From: Planctomycetota bacterium | GTDB taxonomy: Bacteria > Planctomycetota > UBA1135 > UBA2386 | Length of the DNA: 23,359 nucleotides | Direction of reading: 5' to 3' | Assembly (NCBI GenBank): GCA_016793305.1 | Contig: JAEUHU010000050.1 | Location: 1-23,359, forward strand | Part shown: positions 2,335 to 23,359 of the stretch, piece by piece | How positions within the stretch are numbered: position 1 is the stretch's first letter | Layout: each line of letters begins with the position of its first letter | Translations under genes and position numbers: made by a program | The notes under the pieces: generated by a model | Seen by the model: the letters and a program-made list of their open reading frames with translations, nothing else | Databases searched by the model: none | What the model was told of the DNA's origin: nothing

Positions 2335-3579
2335 TCAGCCGCCCGCCGACTTCAGTTCGGCGAACACGTTGGTCGTCTCGAGCGGCAGCCGGAGCGCGTC
2401 GGCGACGCTGGTCATGTAGTTGCCCCACGCGATCAACCAGATCCAGTCGATCGCGCGCACCGGCCCGAACGCGTCAACGAGCGCCGTTCGCTCGGCCGCG
2501 GCCAGCGCCCACGGCTCGCGCGTCAGCCGGCAGGCGACCGTGAACAGCGTGCGCTGCTCGGGCGGAAAGCTCTGCCAGTCGCCAGCGCAGAGCCGCTGCA
2601 CGAGTTCGTCGATCTCCGGTTCTTCCATCCCCGCGACCGCGAGGAGCATCTCGGCGTGACCCATTCAATAGAAGCAGTCGTTGCTGCGGGTCACGACCCA
2701 GAACACCGAGTTCTCCTGGATCGGGTCGACCTTCGCCTCGCGATAGAACGTGTGCAACGCGGTGATCCAGCCGCGCGTCAGCTCGGGCTGATAGGCATAG
2801 CCGAACCTGCTCCAGACGATGCGGCCCGCCTGGCGGCGCTCCCGTTCGCTCGCACGCACCAGCTGCTCGTCGGCGGGCAGCGGCAGGCGCGGCGTCGCGC
2901 GCTGCTGGCGCTCCATGCGGCTGCGCATGTCGACGGCGGCGCCGGCGGTCCAGTGCGCGGGTGCCAGCGAAGTCGTCGTCGGGTTCGCGGCGGCCGGACG
3001 CTCGGGTGCGGGGACGTCGGGCGGCGCGGCGTCGGCGGCCAGCGGCAGCCGCGGCGAGGCCGCGCCGTCGCCGAGACCCAGACCGAGCAGCAGTCGCGAC
3101 TGGAAGTTCGCGTAGGCGACGGTGTGTACGAGGGCCACGACGCCTGCGGCGCCGAATCGCTGCTCGGCGCGCGCGTGGACGTCGTCCGGGATCGCCTGCG
3201 GTGCTGCCGCCATCGCCGCAGCGAACGCCCCGGCGATCGCTTCGGCCTCGGGCGCACGTTCGCTCGCCGGCACCGCCGCGAGGTCGCGCTCGGCGGTGCG
3301 CACCAGCGAGGCGCAGCCGAGGTGCCGCGCCACGCGTTCGCGCACCACCGCCGACACCGCGGCCCCGAGCGGATGCGCGGCGCGATGGAGGTAGTCGAGG
3401 GCCAGCAGTCGGACCGTCGTCGCCGGCAGCGGGCCGCTCAGGGACTCGGCCCAGCCCGGGAGAACGACCCCGGCCGGCAACCCGAGCCGCGCCGCCGGGG
3501 TCTGGGGCTCGCCGCCCGAAACCGCACAGCCGGCCAGCAGCGGCAGCGCACACACCAGCCCTCGGACGGCCACGAGCAT
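2335..3579 (-). CDS. AhpD/CMD-like two-domain selenoprotein (lipoprotein), Sec encoded by TGA at 2665-2667
   Basis: Two abutting minus-strand frames are in the same register, separated by one TGA. Read through, they give 414 residues with Sec305. Residues 1-18 form a lipoprotein signal (lipobox LAGC, Cys18), which fixes the ATG at 3577-3579. Residues ~30-170 look like a first AhpD/carboxymuconolactone-decarboxylase helical domain whose active site is degraded (Cys89 then Leu92 and Thr95). After a Pro/Ala-rich linker, residues ~215-414 form a second domain with NDCFY-U-MGHAE: Cys302, Sec305, His308. This matches the CxxC..H redox site of AhpD-like proteins with the second Cys replaced by Sec. 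A SECIS-like hairpin follows the TGA. The family reduces peroxides or handles organic hydroperoxides through the CxxC pair; the substrate here is unknown. It is divergent from a vanadium haloperoxidase, 73 bases start to start. Alternatives are a point nonsense mutation or a sequencing error, but TGA landing exactly at the redox position argues for Sec. Confidence 0.85.
2628..2645 (-). promoter_or_regulatory. Candidate bacterial SECIS element
   Basis: On the minus-strand transcript, bases 20-37 after the UGA form a 7-bp stem: U-A at the base, then CCUCGC paired with GCGGGG, one pair being U-G. The 4-base loop is GGUC at bases 27-30. E. coli fdhF SECIS also presents GGUC in its apical loop, and bacterial SECIS loops usually sit about 16-37 bases after the UGA. 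The pairing and loop are seen in the sequence; SelB binding is inferred. Confidence 0.7.
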
Positions 3580-3652
3580 CGTGGGCACGCTAGTCGCGCC
3601 TCCGCCGAACGTCACCTGGAGATCCGCGCGGTGCTGCGGTGCAATGTTCCCG
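3580..3652. promoter_or_regulatory. Divergent promoter region of the selenoprotein and haloperoxidase genes
   Basis: These ~70 bases separate two divergent lipoprotein starts and must carry both promoters unless they lie inside the coding sequences. I see no convincing -35/-10 or -24/-12 boxes and no strong palindrome. An ATG at 3581 could extend the rightward gene, but that would add a non-hydrophobic extension ahead of its lipoprotein signal. Confidence 0.35.
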
Positions 3653-5167
3653 ATGCGACTCTCCTCGCCTTCGCTGTCCTTGCTCCTCGCCATCGGTGGC
3701 CTCGCCGCCTGCGCCGGCACCGGCCGAAGCCCCGCCGAGCGCGCGCCCGAGTACGCTCGCACCGGCCAGGAACTGCTGCCCTACGCCGAGCAGAACTTCG
3801 CCTACCGCTGGCTCGACGTGATGCAGGAAGCCGCGGCGCGCGACGTCGACACGTTCGGGGCCAGGCCGACCGTGCTGTCGCGGCAGATGATGCTGTGGGC
3901 CGTGGCGATGTTCGACGCGTGGGCCTGCTACGACGAGAAGGCGGTCGGCACGCGGCTCGGTGGCTCACTGCGGCGGCCGGCGAACGAGCGCACGCTGGCG
4001 AACAAGAACACCGCGATCAGCCACGCGAGCTACCGCGCGCTGTGCGGCGCGTTCCCGGCGCAACGCGAGTTCGTGCGCGGCGAGATGCAGCGGCTCGGCT
4101 TCGATCCGGACGATGCGTCGACCGACCCGACCACGCCGGTCGGCATCGGCAACCTCACCGCCGCGGCGGTGCTCGCCTACCGGGACCAGGACGGCAGCAA
4201 CCACGACGGCAAGGAGCCGGGCGGCGACGGCACGCCCTACGGCGACTACACCGGCTACCAGCCGGTCAACAGCAAGGACGAGATCCGCGACCCCGACCGC
4301 TGGCAGCCGATCGAATTCACGCGCCCCGACGGCAGCAAGTTCACGCCAGGCTTCCTGACGCCACACTGGTTCAAGATGAAGCCGTTCGCGCTCGAGTCGG
4401 CCGCCCAGTTCCGCGCCGAGCCGCCTCCGACCACGACGAGCAACGACGCGCTGCTGCGCGAGCAGACCGACATCGTGCTGCGCATGAACCGCACGCTGAC
4501 CCCGGAGGAGAAGGCGGTCGTCGAGTTCATGCGCGACGGCCCGCGCTCGACCGGCCAGAGCGGCCACTGGCTGCGCTTCGCGCAGGACGTGTCGCGCCGC
4601 GACTGGAACGACCTCGACACCGACGTGAAGCTCTACTTCGCGGTCGCGGTCGCGGCGTTCGACGCGTTCCTGTCGTGCTGGGAGACGAAGCGCTTCTACG
4701 ACACCTCGCGGCCGTGGACGCTGGTGCGGCACTACCACAAGGGCAAGACGGTGCAGGGCTGGGCCGGCCCGAAGGGCGGCGTCGTCGACCTGCCGGCCGA
4801 GCAGTGGCACCCGTACTCGCCGTACGTGTTCATCACGCCGCCGTTCCCGGGCTACACCAGCGGCCACGCGACGGTCAGCGGCGCCTGCGCGAAGGTGCTC
4901 GAGCTGTTCACCGGCAGCGACGTCTACGGCGCGAAGGAGGTGCGGCGCTGCTGCATCCTGACCGAGGAAGTGCCCGGCGACACCGCGACGCTCGACCTGC
5001 CGACGTTCTCGGCGACGGCGGAGATGGCCGCGCGTTCGCGCGCGATGGGCGGCTACCACATCCCGATCGACAACGACGTCGGGCTGCGCATCGGTCGCGA
5101 GCTCGCGGTGTGGAGCTGGCCGAAGTACCAGCAGTACTTCGACGGCACCGCGACCGTGCGGCCGTGA
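3653..5167 (+). CDS. Vanadium-dependent haloperoxidase, lipoprotein
   Basis: The 504-residue protein starts with a lipoprotein signal (MRLSSPSLSL... LAAC, Cys20); an ATG three codons upstream (3644) is equally possible. The C-terminal half carries the full vanadate site of the vanadium haloperoxidase/PAP2-related fold. It has Lys346 and Arg353 (ETKRFYDTSRPW, 7 apart), Ser403-Gly404-His405 (PGYTSGHAT), and Arg463 and His469 (RAMGGYH, 6 apart). The 7- and 6-residue spacings equal those of Curvularia inaequalis chloroperoxidase (K353/R360, R490/H496). His405 matches the acid-base His404. Such enzymes oxidise halides with H2O2 to hypohalous species; some relatives are acid phosphatases. Export is predicted by the signal. 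Halide choice cannot be read from sequence. It may be co-transcribed with the small downstream gene, 60 bases away. Confidence 0.9.
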   Translation: MRLSSPSLSLLLAIGGLAACAGTGRSPAERAPEYARTGQELLPYAEQNFAYRWLDVMQEAAARDVDTFGARPTVLSRQMMLWAVAMFDAWACYDEKAVGTRLGGSLRRPANERTLANKNTAISHASYRALCGAFPAQREFVRGEMQRLGFDPDDASTDPTTPVGIGNLTAAAVLAYRDQDGSNHDGKEPGGDGTPYGDYTGYQPVNSKDEIRDPDRWQPIEFTRPDGSKFTPGFLTPHWFKMKPFALESAAQFRAEPPPTTTSNDALLREQTDIVLRMNRTLTPEEKAVVEFMRDGPRSTGQSGHWLRFAQDVSRRDWNDLDTDVKLYFAVAVAAFDAFLSCWETKRFYDTSRPWTLVRHYHKGKTVQGWAGPKGGVVDLPAEQWHPYSPYVFITPPFPGYTSGHATVSGACAKVLELFTGSDVYGAKEVRRCCILTEEVPGDTATLDLPTFSATAEMAARSRAMGGYHIPIDNDVGLRIGRELAVWSWPKYQQYFDGTATVRP

Positions 5168-7210: not shown

Positions 7211-7291
7211 AGCCAACTTCCGGCGCGTCGATCACCCTGAACTTACTGCTATTCCAGATCTTGCGACACTCTTCGAGGCACAGGGACGGAC

Positions 7292-7307
7292 TGGCACGCA
7301 GGTTGGA
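7292..7307 (+). promoter_or_regulatory. Sigma-54 (-24/-12) promoter
   Basis: TGGCACG-CAGG-TTGGA matches the sigma-54 consensus TGGCACG-N4-TTGCW with one mismatch, G for C at the -12 position. The -24 half is perfect. Predicted transcription would start near 7318, giving a leader of about 42 bases before the CMD gene's ATG. A divergent sigma-54 activator gene and palindromic sites upstream strengthen the call. Confidence 0.75.
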
Positions 7308-7359
7308 TTCCCGAGGGCACCGCGCCATCGCGGAAACCAACCAACCAACAGGACTGACC

Positions 7360-7935
7360 ATGACCCGCCTCCCCGCCCTCGATCCCGCAGCCGCCACCGG
7401 CAAGGCCAAGAACCTGCTCGACGCCGTCCAGAAGAAGCTCGGCCGCACGCCGAACCTGATGCGCACCCTGGCCAACGCCCCCGCGGCGCTCGAGGCCTAC
7501 CTGAACTTCGGCGGCGCGCTCGCCACCGGCACCCTCGACGCGAAGGTGCGCGAGCAGATCGCCCTGACCGTCGCCGAAGCGAACCTGTGCGACTACTGCC
7601 TCGCGGCGCACACCGCGATCGGCGGCATGGTCGGGCTCTCGGCCGACGCCATCACCAAGGCTCGCGCCGCGAACGCCGACCAGCCGAAGGCCACGGCGCT
7701 GCTGAAGCTCGCTCGCAGCATCGTCGTCAACCGCGGCAACCTCACGGACCAGGAGCTCACGACGGCGCGGGCGCAGGGCGTCAGCGACGGCGAGGTGATC
7801 GAGGTGATCGCGAACGTCGCGCTGAACATCCTGACGAACTACGTCAACCACGCGGCCCAGACCGTCGTGGACTTCCCCGCCGTCGCCCCGGCGACCACGT
7901 CGAGCTGCTCGACCGGCCAGTGCCACACGGGCTGA
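7360..7935 (+). CDS. AhpD-like carboxymuconolactone decarboxylase-family protein
   Basis: The 191-residue protein has the AhpD-type active-site pattern Glu73-x3-Cys77-x2-Cys80-x3-His84 (EANLCDYCLAAH). This is followed by helices typical of the family, ending with the NVALNILTNYVNHAAQTVVDFP signature. CMD/AhpD-like proteins with CxxC are thiol peroxidases or disulfide reductases, often for alkyl hydroperoxides; the substrate here is not known. The C-terminus carries an extra cysteine-bearing tail (SSCSTGQCHTG) beyond the usual core. An AGGA-containing stretch (CAGGACTG) precedes the ATG at 7360. It is the first gene of a probable three-gene operon (CMD, DsrE, PPOX) behind the sigma-54 promoter. 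It lacks a signal peptide, unlike the larger CMD-like selenoprotein in this window, so it is expected in the cytoplasm. Confidence 0.92.
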   Translation: MTRLPALDPAAATGKAKNLLDAVQKKLGRTPNLMRTLANAPAALEAYLNFGGALATGTLDAKVREQIALTVAEANLCDYCLAAHTAIGGMVGLSADAITKARAANADQPKATALLKLARSIVVNRGNLTDQELTTARAQGVSDGEVIEVIANVALNILTNYVNHAAQTVVDFPAVAPATTSSCSTGQCHTG

Positions 7936-18793: not shown

Positions 18794-19855
18794 ATGATCC
18801 GATCCGCCCGTTCGTTCGCGTGGAGCGCGCTGTTCGCTCCGGCCCTGCTCGCGCAGGATCCCGCCCCCGCCACGCCGCCGGCCCCGACCGCGCCGGCCAC
18901 CAAGGTCGCGGCCAAGAAGCAGGAGACGCCGGTCTACGACGAGAAGGCCGACGCCCGCCAGCAGGTCGCAGCAGCGCTCGCCAAGGCCAAGAAGGAGAAC
19001 CAGCGCGTGCTGATCCAGTGGGGCGCCAACTGGTGCGGCTGGTGCAAGTGGCTCGCGGCGACCATGAAGTCCGACCGCGACGTCAGCCACGAACTGCTCT
19101 ACGAGTACCAGGTCGTGCACGTCGACGTCGGCCGGTTCGACAAGCACATGGACCTGGCGAAGGAGCTCGGCGCCGAGTTCAAGGCGATCCCGTTCCTGAC
19201 GCTGCTCGACGCCGACGGCAAGCCGCTCGTGCAGCAGAACACCGAACCGTTCGAGACCAAGGTCGACGGCAAGGACGGACACGACCCGAAGAAGCTGGTC
19301 GCGTTCCTGAAGGAACACGCCGCGAAGCCGCTGGTGGCCGCCGACGTGCTCGCGGCCGGGATCGCGCAGGCGAAGCAGTCGGGCAAGCGCGTGTTCCTGC
19401 ACTTCGGCGCGCCGTGGTGCGGCTGGTGCCACCGCCTCGAAGACTGGATGGCGCGTCCCGAGGTCGCGGCCCTGCTCGCCAAGGACTTCGTCGACGTGAA
19501 GATCGACAACGACCGCATGACCGGCGGCGAAGACGTCTACAAGGCGCAGCTGCAGGCGGCCGGCCAGAAGGCGAGCGGCATCCCGTGGTTCGTGTTCCTC
19601 GACGGCGAGGGCAAGCTGCTGGCGCACGCGACCGGCCCGAAGGGCAACGTCGGGTTCCCCTACCAGCCCGAAGAAGTCGAGCACTTCGGCACGATGCTGA
19701 AGGCGGCCAAGCAGAACCTGAGCGACGCCGAGGTTGCCTCGCTGGTGCAGATGCTGCACAAGAACCGGGAAGCCGACGAAGCGAAGAAGAAGGGCTCGGC
19801 CGCGGGCGCGCCCGCCGTGCCGGCGACGCCGCTGGTGCCGACGGGCCCGCAGTGA
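18794..19855 (+). CDS. Exported tandem thioredoxin-domain protein
   Basis: The 353-residue protein has a signal peptide (MIRSARSFAWSALFAPALLA, cleaved near AQD) followed by an Ala/Pro linker. The first thioredoxin-fold domain (~50-175) has WCGWCK (Cys81, Cys84) and cis-proline AIPFLT (Pro133). The second (~180-315) has WCGWCH (Cys209, Cys212) and cis-proline GIPWFV (Pro264). The tail is Lys/Ala-rich and ends in a Pro-rich stretch. Both catalytic pairs are intact, so it can exchange or reduce disulfides outside the cytoplasm; the partner is unknown. A GAGGTG Shine-Dalgarno lies at 18783-18788. It is the first of several thiol-redox genes in this half of the window. The second Cys of neither motif is Sec-coded. 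Confidence 0.92.
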   Translation: MIRSARSFAWSALFAPALLAQDPAPATPPAPTAPATKVAAKKQETPVYDEKADARQQVAAALAKAKKENQRVLIQWGANWCGWCKWLAATMKSDRDVSHELLYEYQVVHVDVGRFDKHMDLAKELGAEFKAIPFLTLLDADGKPLVQQNTEPFETKVDGKDGHDPKKLVAFLKEHAAKPLVAADVLAAGIAQAKQSGKRVFLHFGAPWCGWCHRLEDWMARPEVAALLAKDFVDVKIDNDRMTGGEDVYKAQLQAAGQKASGIPWFVFLDGEGKLLAHATGPKGNVGFPYQPEEVEHFGTMLKAAKQNLSDAEVASLVQMLHKNREADEAKKKGSAAGAPAVPATPLVPTGPQ

Positions 19856-21515: not shown

Positions 21516-22283
21516 ATGAACGCACTCTCTACCCTGTTCTTGTCGTCCTGCCTGTGCCTGCCGCTGTTCGCGCAGGAGCCGGCGAAGGAACCGCCGAAGC
21601 CCGCCACCGAGCAGAAGCAGCAGGAGCCGAAGACCGAGGCGCCGAAGACGCTGCAGCTCGGCACGCGTGTCGACGGCAAGACGACGCTGACCGACATCGA
21701 CGGCAAGGCCGTCATGGCCCACGAGTTCATGGGCAAGGTCACGGTCGTCAACTTCTATTCGATCCAGTGCCCGATCCAGCGTGCGTGGGACAGCCGCCTC
21801 GCCGAGATCCAGAAGGAGTTCGAGGCGCAGGGCGTGGTGTTCCTGCACATCGACAGCAACGTCACCGAGATCGGCGAGGAAGCGCCGAAGCAGGACGGCG
21901 AGCAGAAGCCCTACGCGAAGATCCGCGAGCACCTGAAGGCCGAGGGCCTGCCGTTCCGCGTGCTCGCCGACCACGGCAACAAGATCGCCGACTTCTTCGA
22001 GGCGAAGACCACGCCGCACGTCTACGTGTTCGGCCAGGACGGCAAGCTGATCTACAAGGGCCTGGTCGACGACGACCAGAAGAACCGCAACGCCGAGAAG
22101 CGGAACAACTACCTGCGTGACGTGCTCGGCAAGCTGCTGAAGAACGAGAAGGTCGAGCCGTTCGCGACCAAGGAAGAGGGCTGCTCGATCAAGCGCGTCG
22201 GTGCAGCTGGCGGTCGCGGTGGTCGCGGTCGCGGCGACGGCGGTGGCCGCGGCGAGAAGCCGAAGGCGAACGGTGGCAGCTGA
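21516..22283 (+). CDS. Exported one-cysteine redoxin with Gly/Arg-rich tail
   Basis: This 255-residue protein has a signal peptide (MNALSTLFLSSCLCLPLFAQ), then a charged linker (~21-45). The thioredoxin/AhpC-TSA-like domain (~46-215) has strand VTVVNFYSIQCPIQRAW (Cys85) and cis-proline TTPHVYVFGQDG. At the CxxC position only the first Cys is present (C-P-I-Q88), so it cannot form the usual CxxC disulfide; Cys223 in EEGCSIKR could be a resolving cysteine. The last ~28 residues are a Gly/Arg tail with GGRGGRGRGDGGG. A GGAG at 21504-21507 precedes the ATG. The next gene overlaps its end by 11 bases, so co-translation is likely. Thiol peroxidase activity is inferred from the fold. Confidence 0.88.
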   Translation: MNALSTLFLSSCLCLPLFAQEPAKEPPKPATEQKQQEPKTEAPKTLQLGTRVDGKTTLTDIDGKAVMAHEFMGKVTVVNFYSIQCPIQRAWDSRLAEIQKEFEAQGVVFLHIDSNVTEIGEEAPKQDGEQKPYAKIREHLKAEGLPFRVLADHGNKIADFFEAKTTPHVYVFGQDGKLIYKGLVDDDQKNRNAEKRNNYLRDVLGKLLKNEKVEPFATKEEGCSIKRVGAAGGRGGRGRGDGGGRGEKPKANGGS

Positions 22284-22851
22284 GCGGCTGCTGCCGGGTC
22301 TGCTGCTGCTGGCCGCCTGCTCGGGCGAGCCGGCAGCGCCTGCACCCGAGGCCACTCCGGCGGTGGTGACGTCGCCGAAGACCCCGCCGGCCCCGGCGAC
22401 GAACACCTTCCCCGTCGAAGCCCGCGACACCGCCGGCGTGATGCAGTGGCTCGCGGCGCAGCGCGGCAAGCCGGTGCTGGTCAACTTCTGGGCGACCTGG
22501 TGCGCACCGTGCGTCGCCGAACTGCCCGACCTGCTGGCCGGCACGCGCACGTTCCGCGACGGCGGTGGCGTGGTTCTCACCGTCGCGATGGAGCAGCTCG
22601 GCCTCGACCTGACGGTCGAGCAAGCGGTCGCCAAGGCCACCGCGAAGGCCAAGGAGCTCGGCTTCGACGTGCCGCTGCTGGTCTGCACCGACGACGAGAT
22701 GACCAAGATCCGCCAGGTGCTCGGCGTCGAGATCGGCGGCCTGCCGCAGACGCTGACCTACGACCGGGCCGGCAAGCTGGTGCACCAGCACGAAGGGCCG
22801 GCGGACGCCGAGGAGTTCGCGGCGCTGGCGAAGGACGCGGCGGCGCGCTGA
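22273..22851 (+). CDS. TlpA-like thioredoxin lipoprotein
   Basis: The 192-residue protein starts at a GTG at 22273 that overlaps the redoxin gene's end by 11 bases. The lipoprotein signal (VAAERLLPGLLLLAAC, Cys16) supports this start. Earlier in-frame starts would translate the redoxin's Gly/Arg tail in another frame. After a Pro/Ala linker, the thioredoxin-like domain has VLVNFWATWCAPCVAEL (Cys77, Cys80). The cis-proline is in GGLPQTLTYD. TlpA/ResA-like proteins reduce disulfides outside the cytoplasm, for example in cytochrome c maturation; the specific partner is unknown. It probably works with the upstream redoxin and receives electrons from a DsbD-like protein such as the convergent gene at the right edge. 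Both catalytic cysteines are present. Confidence 0.9.
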   Translation: MAAERLLPGLLLLAACSGEPAAPAPEATPAVVTSPKTPPAPATNTFPVEARDTAGVMQWLAAQRGKPVLVNFWATWCAPCVAELPDLLAGTRTFRDGGGVVLTVAMEQLGLDLTVEQAVAKATAKAKELGFDVPLLVCTDDEMTKIRQVLGVEIGGLPQTLTYDRAGKLVHQHEGPADAEEFAALAKDAAAR

Positions 22852-22870: not shown

Positions 22871-23359
22871 TCACTTCGCGACCGGCGGCAGCGGCCGCCC
22901 AGTCTTCTGCAGCGAGCTCTCGAGGAACTTGCGGTAGCCGGGCAGCCAGTCGCCGCTCAGCACATACTCGACGATCGTCGTGCCGACGTTCGGGTCGACG
23001 CTGACGTAGGTCGGCGTGGTGATCCGGCCGCCGACCAGGTCCTTGCGCAGCTGCAGGTGCCGCGCCCACTTCTCCGGCGCGATCACGTCCGGGTTGTCCA
23101 TGTGCAGACGCGCTTCGACGAACTGCGCCTCGAGCAGCGGGGCGATCTGGTCGTCCGGCATGATGCCGCGCTCGACCATGCGGCAGTTGGCGCACGTGAA
23201 GCCGGTGAAGTTCACCAGCACCAGCTTGCCCTCGGCCTTGGCCCGGGCGGCGGCCGCCTCGTAGTCGTCGACGACGATCGGGTGGCGGGCGATCTCCTTC
23301 ATGCCATAGGCCGGCGCCAACGCGTTCATCACGAAGTCGAGCTTGTAGCCGAGCGCGCC
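22871..23359 (-). CDS. DsbD-like protein, C-terminal thioredoxin domain (5' truncated)
   Basis: The frame stays open to the right edge (upstream residues read GALGYKLDFV), so the N-terminus is missing. The visible ~160 residues form a thioredoxin-like domain. VVDDYEAAAARAKAEGKLVLVNFTGFTCANCRMVE carries the active CANC pair, and ITTPTYVSVDP gives the cis-proline region. The F-T-G-x-T-C-x-N-C pattern is typical of the C-terminal domain of DsbD/ScsB-type proteins, which move electrons across the membrane to periplasmic thioredoxins. The missing upstream part would be expected to hold the membrane CcdA-like domain, but this cannot be seen. The thioredoxin family without a membrane part is the alternative. 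It converges with the TlpA-like lipoprotein gene, a plausible client. Confidence 0.8.
   Translation of the reverse strand, partial: GALGYKLDFVMNALAPAYGMKEIARHPIVVDDYEAAAARAKAEGKLVLVNFTGFTCANCRMVERGIMPDDQIAPLLEAQFVEARLHMDNPDVIAPEKWARHLQLRKDLVGGRITTPTYVSVDPNVGTTIVEYVLSGDWLPGYRKFLESSLQKTGRPLPPVAK

Follow-up and report, generated by a model that had tools for sequence, protein, structure and literature searches.

A 23,359-nucleotide stretch of DNA from a Planctomycetota bacterium (assembly GCA_016793305.1, contig JAEUHU010000050.1; this whole stretch is called the window below) carries on its minus strand a gene that, with high confidence, is best explained as that of a planctomycete selenoprotein, in which UGA is decoded within a redox enzyme built from a fused pair of AhpD-like domains. 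Comparison with relatives indicates that the in-frame TGA at codon 305 is almost certainly recoded as selenocysteine (Sec), and it is on this basis that Sec insertion in this strain is proposed. The putative start at 3579 is supported by the N-termini of homologues. The gene and its active-site codons are as follows.

3579..2335, minus strand: predicted selenoprotein gene, 414 residues with the TGA at 2665-2667 read as Sec, terminal TGA at 2337..2335
2665..2667, minus strand: in-frame TGA, predicted Sec codon 305, second residue of C-x-x-U; TGA in 20 of 22 related loci, TGC in 2
2674..2676, minus strand: codon of Cys302, the partner of Sec305; Cys in all 21 TGA sequences
2656..2658, minus strand: codon of His308, three residues past Sec; His in all 21 TGA sequences

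The sequence-only reading had joined two same-frame open stretches at one TGA, and both the junction and its coordinates are right: the frame 3579..2335 holds a single in-frame TGA ahead of the terminal stop, flanked as SNDCFY-U-MGHAEM, with 371 open codons upstream and 109 downstream. A genome collection (84,980 species per the tool description) was scanned with two short peptide patterns that had to match exactly, a demand that makes the scan silent on absence in other genomes; it gave 49 pattern-matching stretches, 22 of which encode relatives, while none of the three pattern-matching stretches in viral contigs does. The related loci are labelled planctomycete in 20 cases and just 'bacterium' in two (L007, L011), and one relative, L004, bears a species-level name, Gemmata sp. 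IIL30, and its record carries no label of metagenome-assembled genome (MAG). The codon at the Sec position is TGA in 20 loci, TGC in two (L020 and L022, the latter a distant relative with reversed domain order) and TAA or TAG in none. The window and the 20 TGA loci form a set of 21 TGA sequences, in which the frame stays open for 105 to 214 codons downstream of the TGA. With the same TGA, context and downstream frame shared by 20 of the 22 relatives' loci in other genomes, a chance TGA is unlikely, and a sequencing error at this codon is excluded in practice. A pseudogene created by a nonsense mutation or an assembly error would be suggested only if this sequence were viewed alone, in which case annotation would divide it in two. 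Its probability is negligible, given that the TGA is shared with 20 loci whose protein identity to the window's ranges from 36 to 86% and that nonsynonymous divergence (dN) is well under synonymous divergence (dS) downstream of the TGA.

The part downstream of the TGA is under purifying selection. Between the window and L001, dN and dS are 0.09 and 0.33 downstream and 0.09 and 0.45 upstream; between the window and L002, they are 0.18 and 0.63 downstream and 0.22 and 0.62 upstream. Upstream and downstream of the TGA alike, a smaller share of nonsynonymous than of synonymous sites has changed in 7 of 7 pairs, dS being saturated in the pair L010/L012. The TGA might also be a true stop separating two polypeptides, the second restarting by translational coupling at the adjoining ATG (TGA-ATG), and 18 of 21 sequences do have an ATG directly behind the TGA, with the downstream open reading frame (ORF) readable from it; however, L009, L015 and L017 have CTG instead, and since Cys homologues without a stop have Met there too (C-M-G-H), this Met is retained for the protein. 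A true stop also fits poorly with a codon that is TGA or TGC throughout the 22 loci and never TAA or TAG, and it leaves the hairpin and the sel genes described below unexplained, making it very improbable.

The protein database yielded 72 homologues via the window protein and 76 via P0010 (itself counted), overlapping sets that comprise 139 distinct sequences. In the great majority (111) the last residues are exactly C-[FI]-Y, 23 match the read-on motif and five match neither, although inspection showed C[SP]YCMGH in three of these five (P0087, P0092 and P0093). The TGA was verified in DNA for the 20 genome loci, and for database entries Sec was taken from where the ORF ends; left out of the Sec/Cys counts were P0009 and P0140, whose frame leaves the family, P0073, which is the dead domain alone, and P0061 and P0070, where the motif match lies in the dead domain only. 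A Cys at residue 305 was found in P0010, P0084, P0087, P0092, P0093, P0097, P0120 and L020, the same-order Cys homologues reading C[FSP]YCMGH. Together with the sel genes in relatives' genomes and a hairpin that fits the published bacterial model, they support the earlier proposal that the TGA is read as Sec in place of a catalytic Cys. On a tree of 53 rows (quick method, SH-aLRT support alone, midpoint root, 'Sec' of the database rows inferred from the ORF end), the Sec/Cys label requires 2 changes, the same number that well-supported branches enforce, compared with 7.6 in shuffles; because Cys rows sit within Sec rows, the tree suggests at least two Sec-to-Cys losses in the history of the family, a direction that depends on the root. 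On the Sec reading, at least 111 database entries (90% identity clusters), many of them named hypothetical or alkylhydroperoxidase, would be stored truncated, without their catalytic residue or the latter half of the active domain. The entry P0135 (Tautonia marina per its source) has 355 residues, ends HCFY and is named carboxymuconolactone decarboxylase; it is probably the truncated selenoprotein of a named species.

Just downstream of the Sec codon, the RNA can form a hairpin resembling a selenocysteine insertion sequence (SECIS; bSECIS in bacteria).

2629..2644, minus strand: SECIS-like hairpin, six common pairs (a seventh in the window), loop GGUC at 2635-2638, 26 nt from TGA to loop

Codons +8 to +11 read CTC GCG GTC GCG in all 21 TGA sequences. 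In 19 alignment columns all 21 sequences use one fourfold codon family, and only four of these columns, which make up the unbroken run of codons +8 to +11, have an invariant third base; this invariance persists despite a third-position GC that ranges from 0.42 to 0.99. The helix is 100% paired throughout, and its outer pair, which falls on two third positions (synonymous sites), covaries (G-C 17, C-G 3, A-U 1); neither the covariation score nor the percentage paired was equalled in 500 shuffles. The isolated 21-nt stretch folds to the hairpin in 21 of 21 sequences. The published bSECIS model places a loop of 3-9 nt on a stem of 4-16 bp, with G in loop positions 1-2, at 16-37 nt from the UGA and at most -7.5 kcal/mol (PMC13188914), ranges within which the window hairpin falls when checked by hand, its isolated energy being -11.3 kcal/mol. 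The Cys loci L020 and L022 lack the hairpin motif. When the genomes were scanned with a pattern derived from the TGA loci, 18 TGA genomes had a single match, G015 and G017 had two apiece and the Cys genomes had none; reversing the pattern gave zero matches in all of them. The second place in G015 and in G017, with the same TGA and hairpin pattern, is a putative second gene. An Rfam search of the window gave nothing at gathering scores.

The genomes of the 22 relatives were searched for the genes of Sec synthesis and insertion. SelD was found in 20 of 20 TGA genomes, the matched gene having an in-frame TGA in 10 of them; SelA in 19 (not G012); SelB above the cut-off in 18, plus G004, where it lies in two neighbouring fragments scoring 217 and 141 bits (not G018); and tRNA-Sec with the anticodon TCA in 18 (not G002 or G007). 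At least three of the four sel genes are present in every TGA genome, and the two TGC genomes have no sel gene above the cut-off. Single absences mean little, because most of the 22 records are MAGs. Planctomycetes with sel genes have been reported, Gemmata obscuriglobus among them (PMC4807772). Since control genomes give weak matches, as with SelA (below the cut-off in 4 of 14, above it in 1), only above-cut-off and anticodon-checked matches were counted. Weak RF01852 matches (~44-51 bits) were considered as tRNA-Sec and rejected, two fetched loci (L041, L042) being tRNA-Ser(tga) by ARAGORN; with such matches discounted, tRNA-Sec is counted in 18 genomes and not 19.

The joined protein was modelled with AlphaFold2 (AF2; pLDDT 92.7, pTM 0.91), and the window protein shows the AhpD/CMD helical fold, with two domains.

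3040..3501, minus strand: first AhpD/CMD-like domain, ~residues 27-180, from the AF2 model, PDB profile matches 2ijc and 2o4d, and hhalign
2368..2904, minus strand: second AhpD/CMD-like domain, ~residues 226-404, carrying C302-F-Y-U305-M-G-H308

An hhalign comparison of the two halves of the protein gave a probability of 99.0, and the first domain is without an active site, having L92 at the Sec position and T95 at the His position; the model and the alignment of the halves thus bear out the degenerate first CMD-like domain and active second domain that had been proposed. The Pfam family PF02627 (CMD) does not match the window protein at E 0.1 and is matched by 9 of 53 alignment members at E 0.01. 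By motif and fold, the window protein is very likely a thiol/selenol redox enzyme.

The N-terminus carries a further feature.

3526..3579, minus strand: putative signal peptide with lipobox LAGC and Cys18, from sequence inspection only

The putative lipoprotein-type signal of the sequence-only reading is seen in the window protein, and the lipobox (residues 15-18) is shared by its nearest relative, P0002, but it does not appear to be a family trait: of the 111 truncated homologues, some of which may miss the true start, only 3 have a strict lipobox and 13 a looser one. The window product is probably exported and possibly lipid-anchored in this strain.

In the proposed mechanism, SelB on the GGUC hairpin, whose loop starts 26 nt past the UGA, would deliver Sec-tRNA at UGA 305, and translation would run on to 2335. 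The product would fold as a fused pair of AhpD-like domains, of which the first may be a catalytically dead half supplying a pseudo-dimer interface, and the second would place Cys302-Phe-Tyr-Sec305 at a helix start with His308 nearby. The likely reaction would be the reduction of an organic hydroperoxide or of a protein disulfide or sulfenic acid, peroxide being slightly favoured over disulfide as the substrate. Sec305 would attack, Cys302 would resolve to a selenenylsulfide, and a thioredoxin-fold partner would reduce the latter; such a partner is pointed to because five members (L007, L010, L012, L021 and P0138) carry a fused deiodinase-like domain, PF00837, which together with EF hands precedes the AhpD pair. 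The redox residue of this fused domain is Cys (FGNFTCGPF), and the fusion count is a lower bound, N-terminal extensions having been inspected in 10 of 22 loci. A different architecture is seen in L020, where two Cys-type copies of the AhpD pair are fused in tandem in one frame, in a genome without a sel gene above the cut-off.

Several observations weigh against this interpretation. The sel-gene evidence comes from the relatives' genomes, the sel contrast consists of two TGC genomes only, one of them that of the distant, reversed-order L022, and all 14 control genomes give sub-cut-off matches to RF01852, SelB and SelD, with above-cut-off matches in 5, 2 and 2, respectively. Five of the six hairpin pairs are invariant, so that covariation is the evidence of one pair; 224 of 500 shuffles had at least as many covarying pairs, and 180 of 500 at least as many extra pair types; 12 of 21 sequences show the full six-pair hairpin in the minimum-energy fold of a 47-nt stretch, while the rest have competing folds (L016 with four pairs); and the hairpin of L021 is just at the -7.5 kcal/mol limit. 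The divergent, haloperoxidase-like neighbour at 3581-5167 on the plus strand, which has DUF6851 and vanadium chloroperoxidase second-domain matches, finds no tblastn match in the 22 loci, some of which (e.g., L001) have little upstream DNA. In the active site, His lies at +3 in 21 of 21 TGA sequences (U-[ML]-G-H) and not at the +4 of AhpD, and the earlier claim of Sec at the second redox position of a CMD/AhpD-like CxxC..H site accordingly stands for the CxxU and the His and is refined as to the His spacing, which is CxxCxxxH in AhpD. The structure 2prr has Cys86/Cys89/His93, i.e., His at +4 after CxxC, and the relay acid is described 12 residues ahead of the first Cys (Glu74 in 2prr; His113 in Sestrin2) (PMC4674687); the 21 sequences have Asn (18), Ser (2) or Gly (1) at the 2prr relay-Glu position, located by fixed spacing, and a residue elsewhere may take this role. 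Because His is at +3 and the relay acid is not at the usual spacing, AhpD peroxidase chemistry may not carry over, and it cannot simply be transferred to the window protein. Sec might also be inserted into a protein that is no peroxidase, either a sestrin-like scaffold with a structural or sensing role or a CMD-superfamily decarboxylase or dehalogenase such as Bmp8; we consider this unlikely and prefer the UGA-decoded redox enzyme.

Comparison of the 22 neighbourhoods revealed no gene context common to most. Two upstream ORFs are common to L012, L020, L021 and L022, and in L012, the locus inspected, one is DUF1559 pseudopilin-like and the other has no Pfam match; we see no functional clue in this pair. 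Further neighbours are common to L010 and L012, as expected of close kin. Elsewhere in the window, 7261-7935 (plus strand) encodes an ordinary single CMD/AhpD-like protein with CDYC, His at +4 and a PF02627 match, so that both kinds occur in the window, and thioredoxin-like or redoxin-like proteins are encoded at 18794-19855 (plus), 22201-22851 (plus) and 22871-23332 (minus). The sigma-54 regulator of the window, used to place its organism, pointed to no clear nearest genome.

AhpD-like CxxU selenoproteins have already been catalogued (PMC1794560, PMC2398784, PMC1088965, PMC9312934, PMC13188914). Among them, NF041238 (AhpD_rel_CFYUT, 'hypothetical protein 1' of the Sargasso Sea selenoproteome), tabulated as a CxxU AhpD-related selenoprotein (PMC13188914), shares the CFYU site by name; however, the window protein scores 33.2 bits against its cut-off of 175, none of the 22 genomes has an above-cut-off match, and no NCBIfam model takes the window protein at its cut-off. 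The single-domain AhpD-like CxxU selenoproteins of the TIGR01926/COG2128 class likewise share the CxxU site, and six single-domain TGA genes (L053-L058; CFY-TGA-[TRV]-E-S-H) from six of the same genomes (Gemmataceae and other planctomycetes) are candidate members, a class assignment that is our own reading, with no above-cut-off family match. Their translations differ from the window protein in having ~190-200 residues, His at +4 (CFYU-T-E-S-H) and no dead first domain, and they lack CTCGCGGTCGCGGG in the 54 nt after the TGA, unlike the window. Isosphaeraceae-type two-domain CMD proteins (P0055-P0072) resemble the window protein in their two AhpD-like domains, with C-x-Y-C-x-G-H in 16 of 18 by motif, but their active domain comes first and has Cys instead of Sec, the order having been inspected in six and taken from motif order or length in the rest. 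In the literature searched, no description of this two-domain Sec family was found.

The predicted overall shape of the window protein resembles the animal stress protein sestrin, which likewise joins a collinear pair of AhpD-like domains within a single chain. Sestrin2 retains a single Cys in its N-domain and none in its C-domain (PMC4674687), an arrangement that the window protein reverses, its C-domain being the predicted active one, with Sec. The DDYDY GATOR2-binding motif of the sestrin C-domain (PMC11429811) is not present in the window translation, and kinship with sestrins by sequence was considered and rejected, since a comparison reaching to E 10 gave no match. A bacterial version of the sestrin fold that uses selenium, as an exported, Planctomycetota-centred family with Sec in its active half and, in some members, EF hands and a deiodinase-like domain, is a tentative and somewhat doubtful idea; if true, the EF-hand fusions of those members would amount to an extracytoplasmic selenium peroxidase or dehalogenase that is tuned by calcium and carries its redox partner in the same chain. 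As interpreted here, the window protein would extend the bacterial selenoproteins by a member that has two domains and is probably exported, its invariant SECIS-like sequence is offered for SelB studies, and, as a bacterial sestrin-fold protein with a predicted active-site Sec, it could be assayed beside the sestrins.
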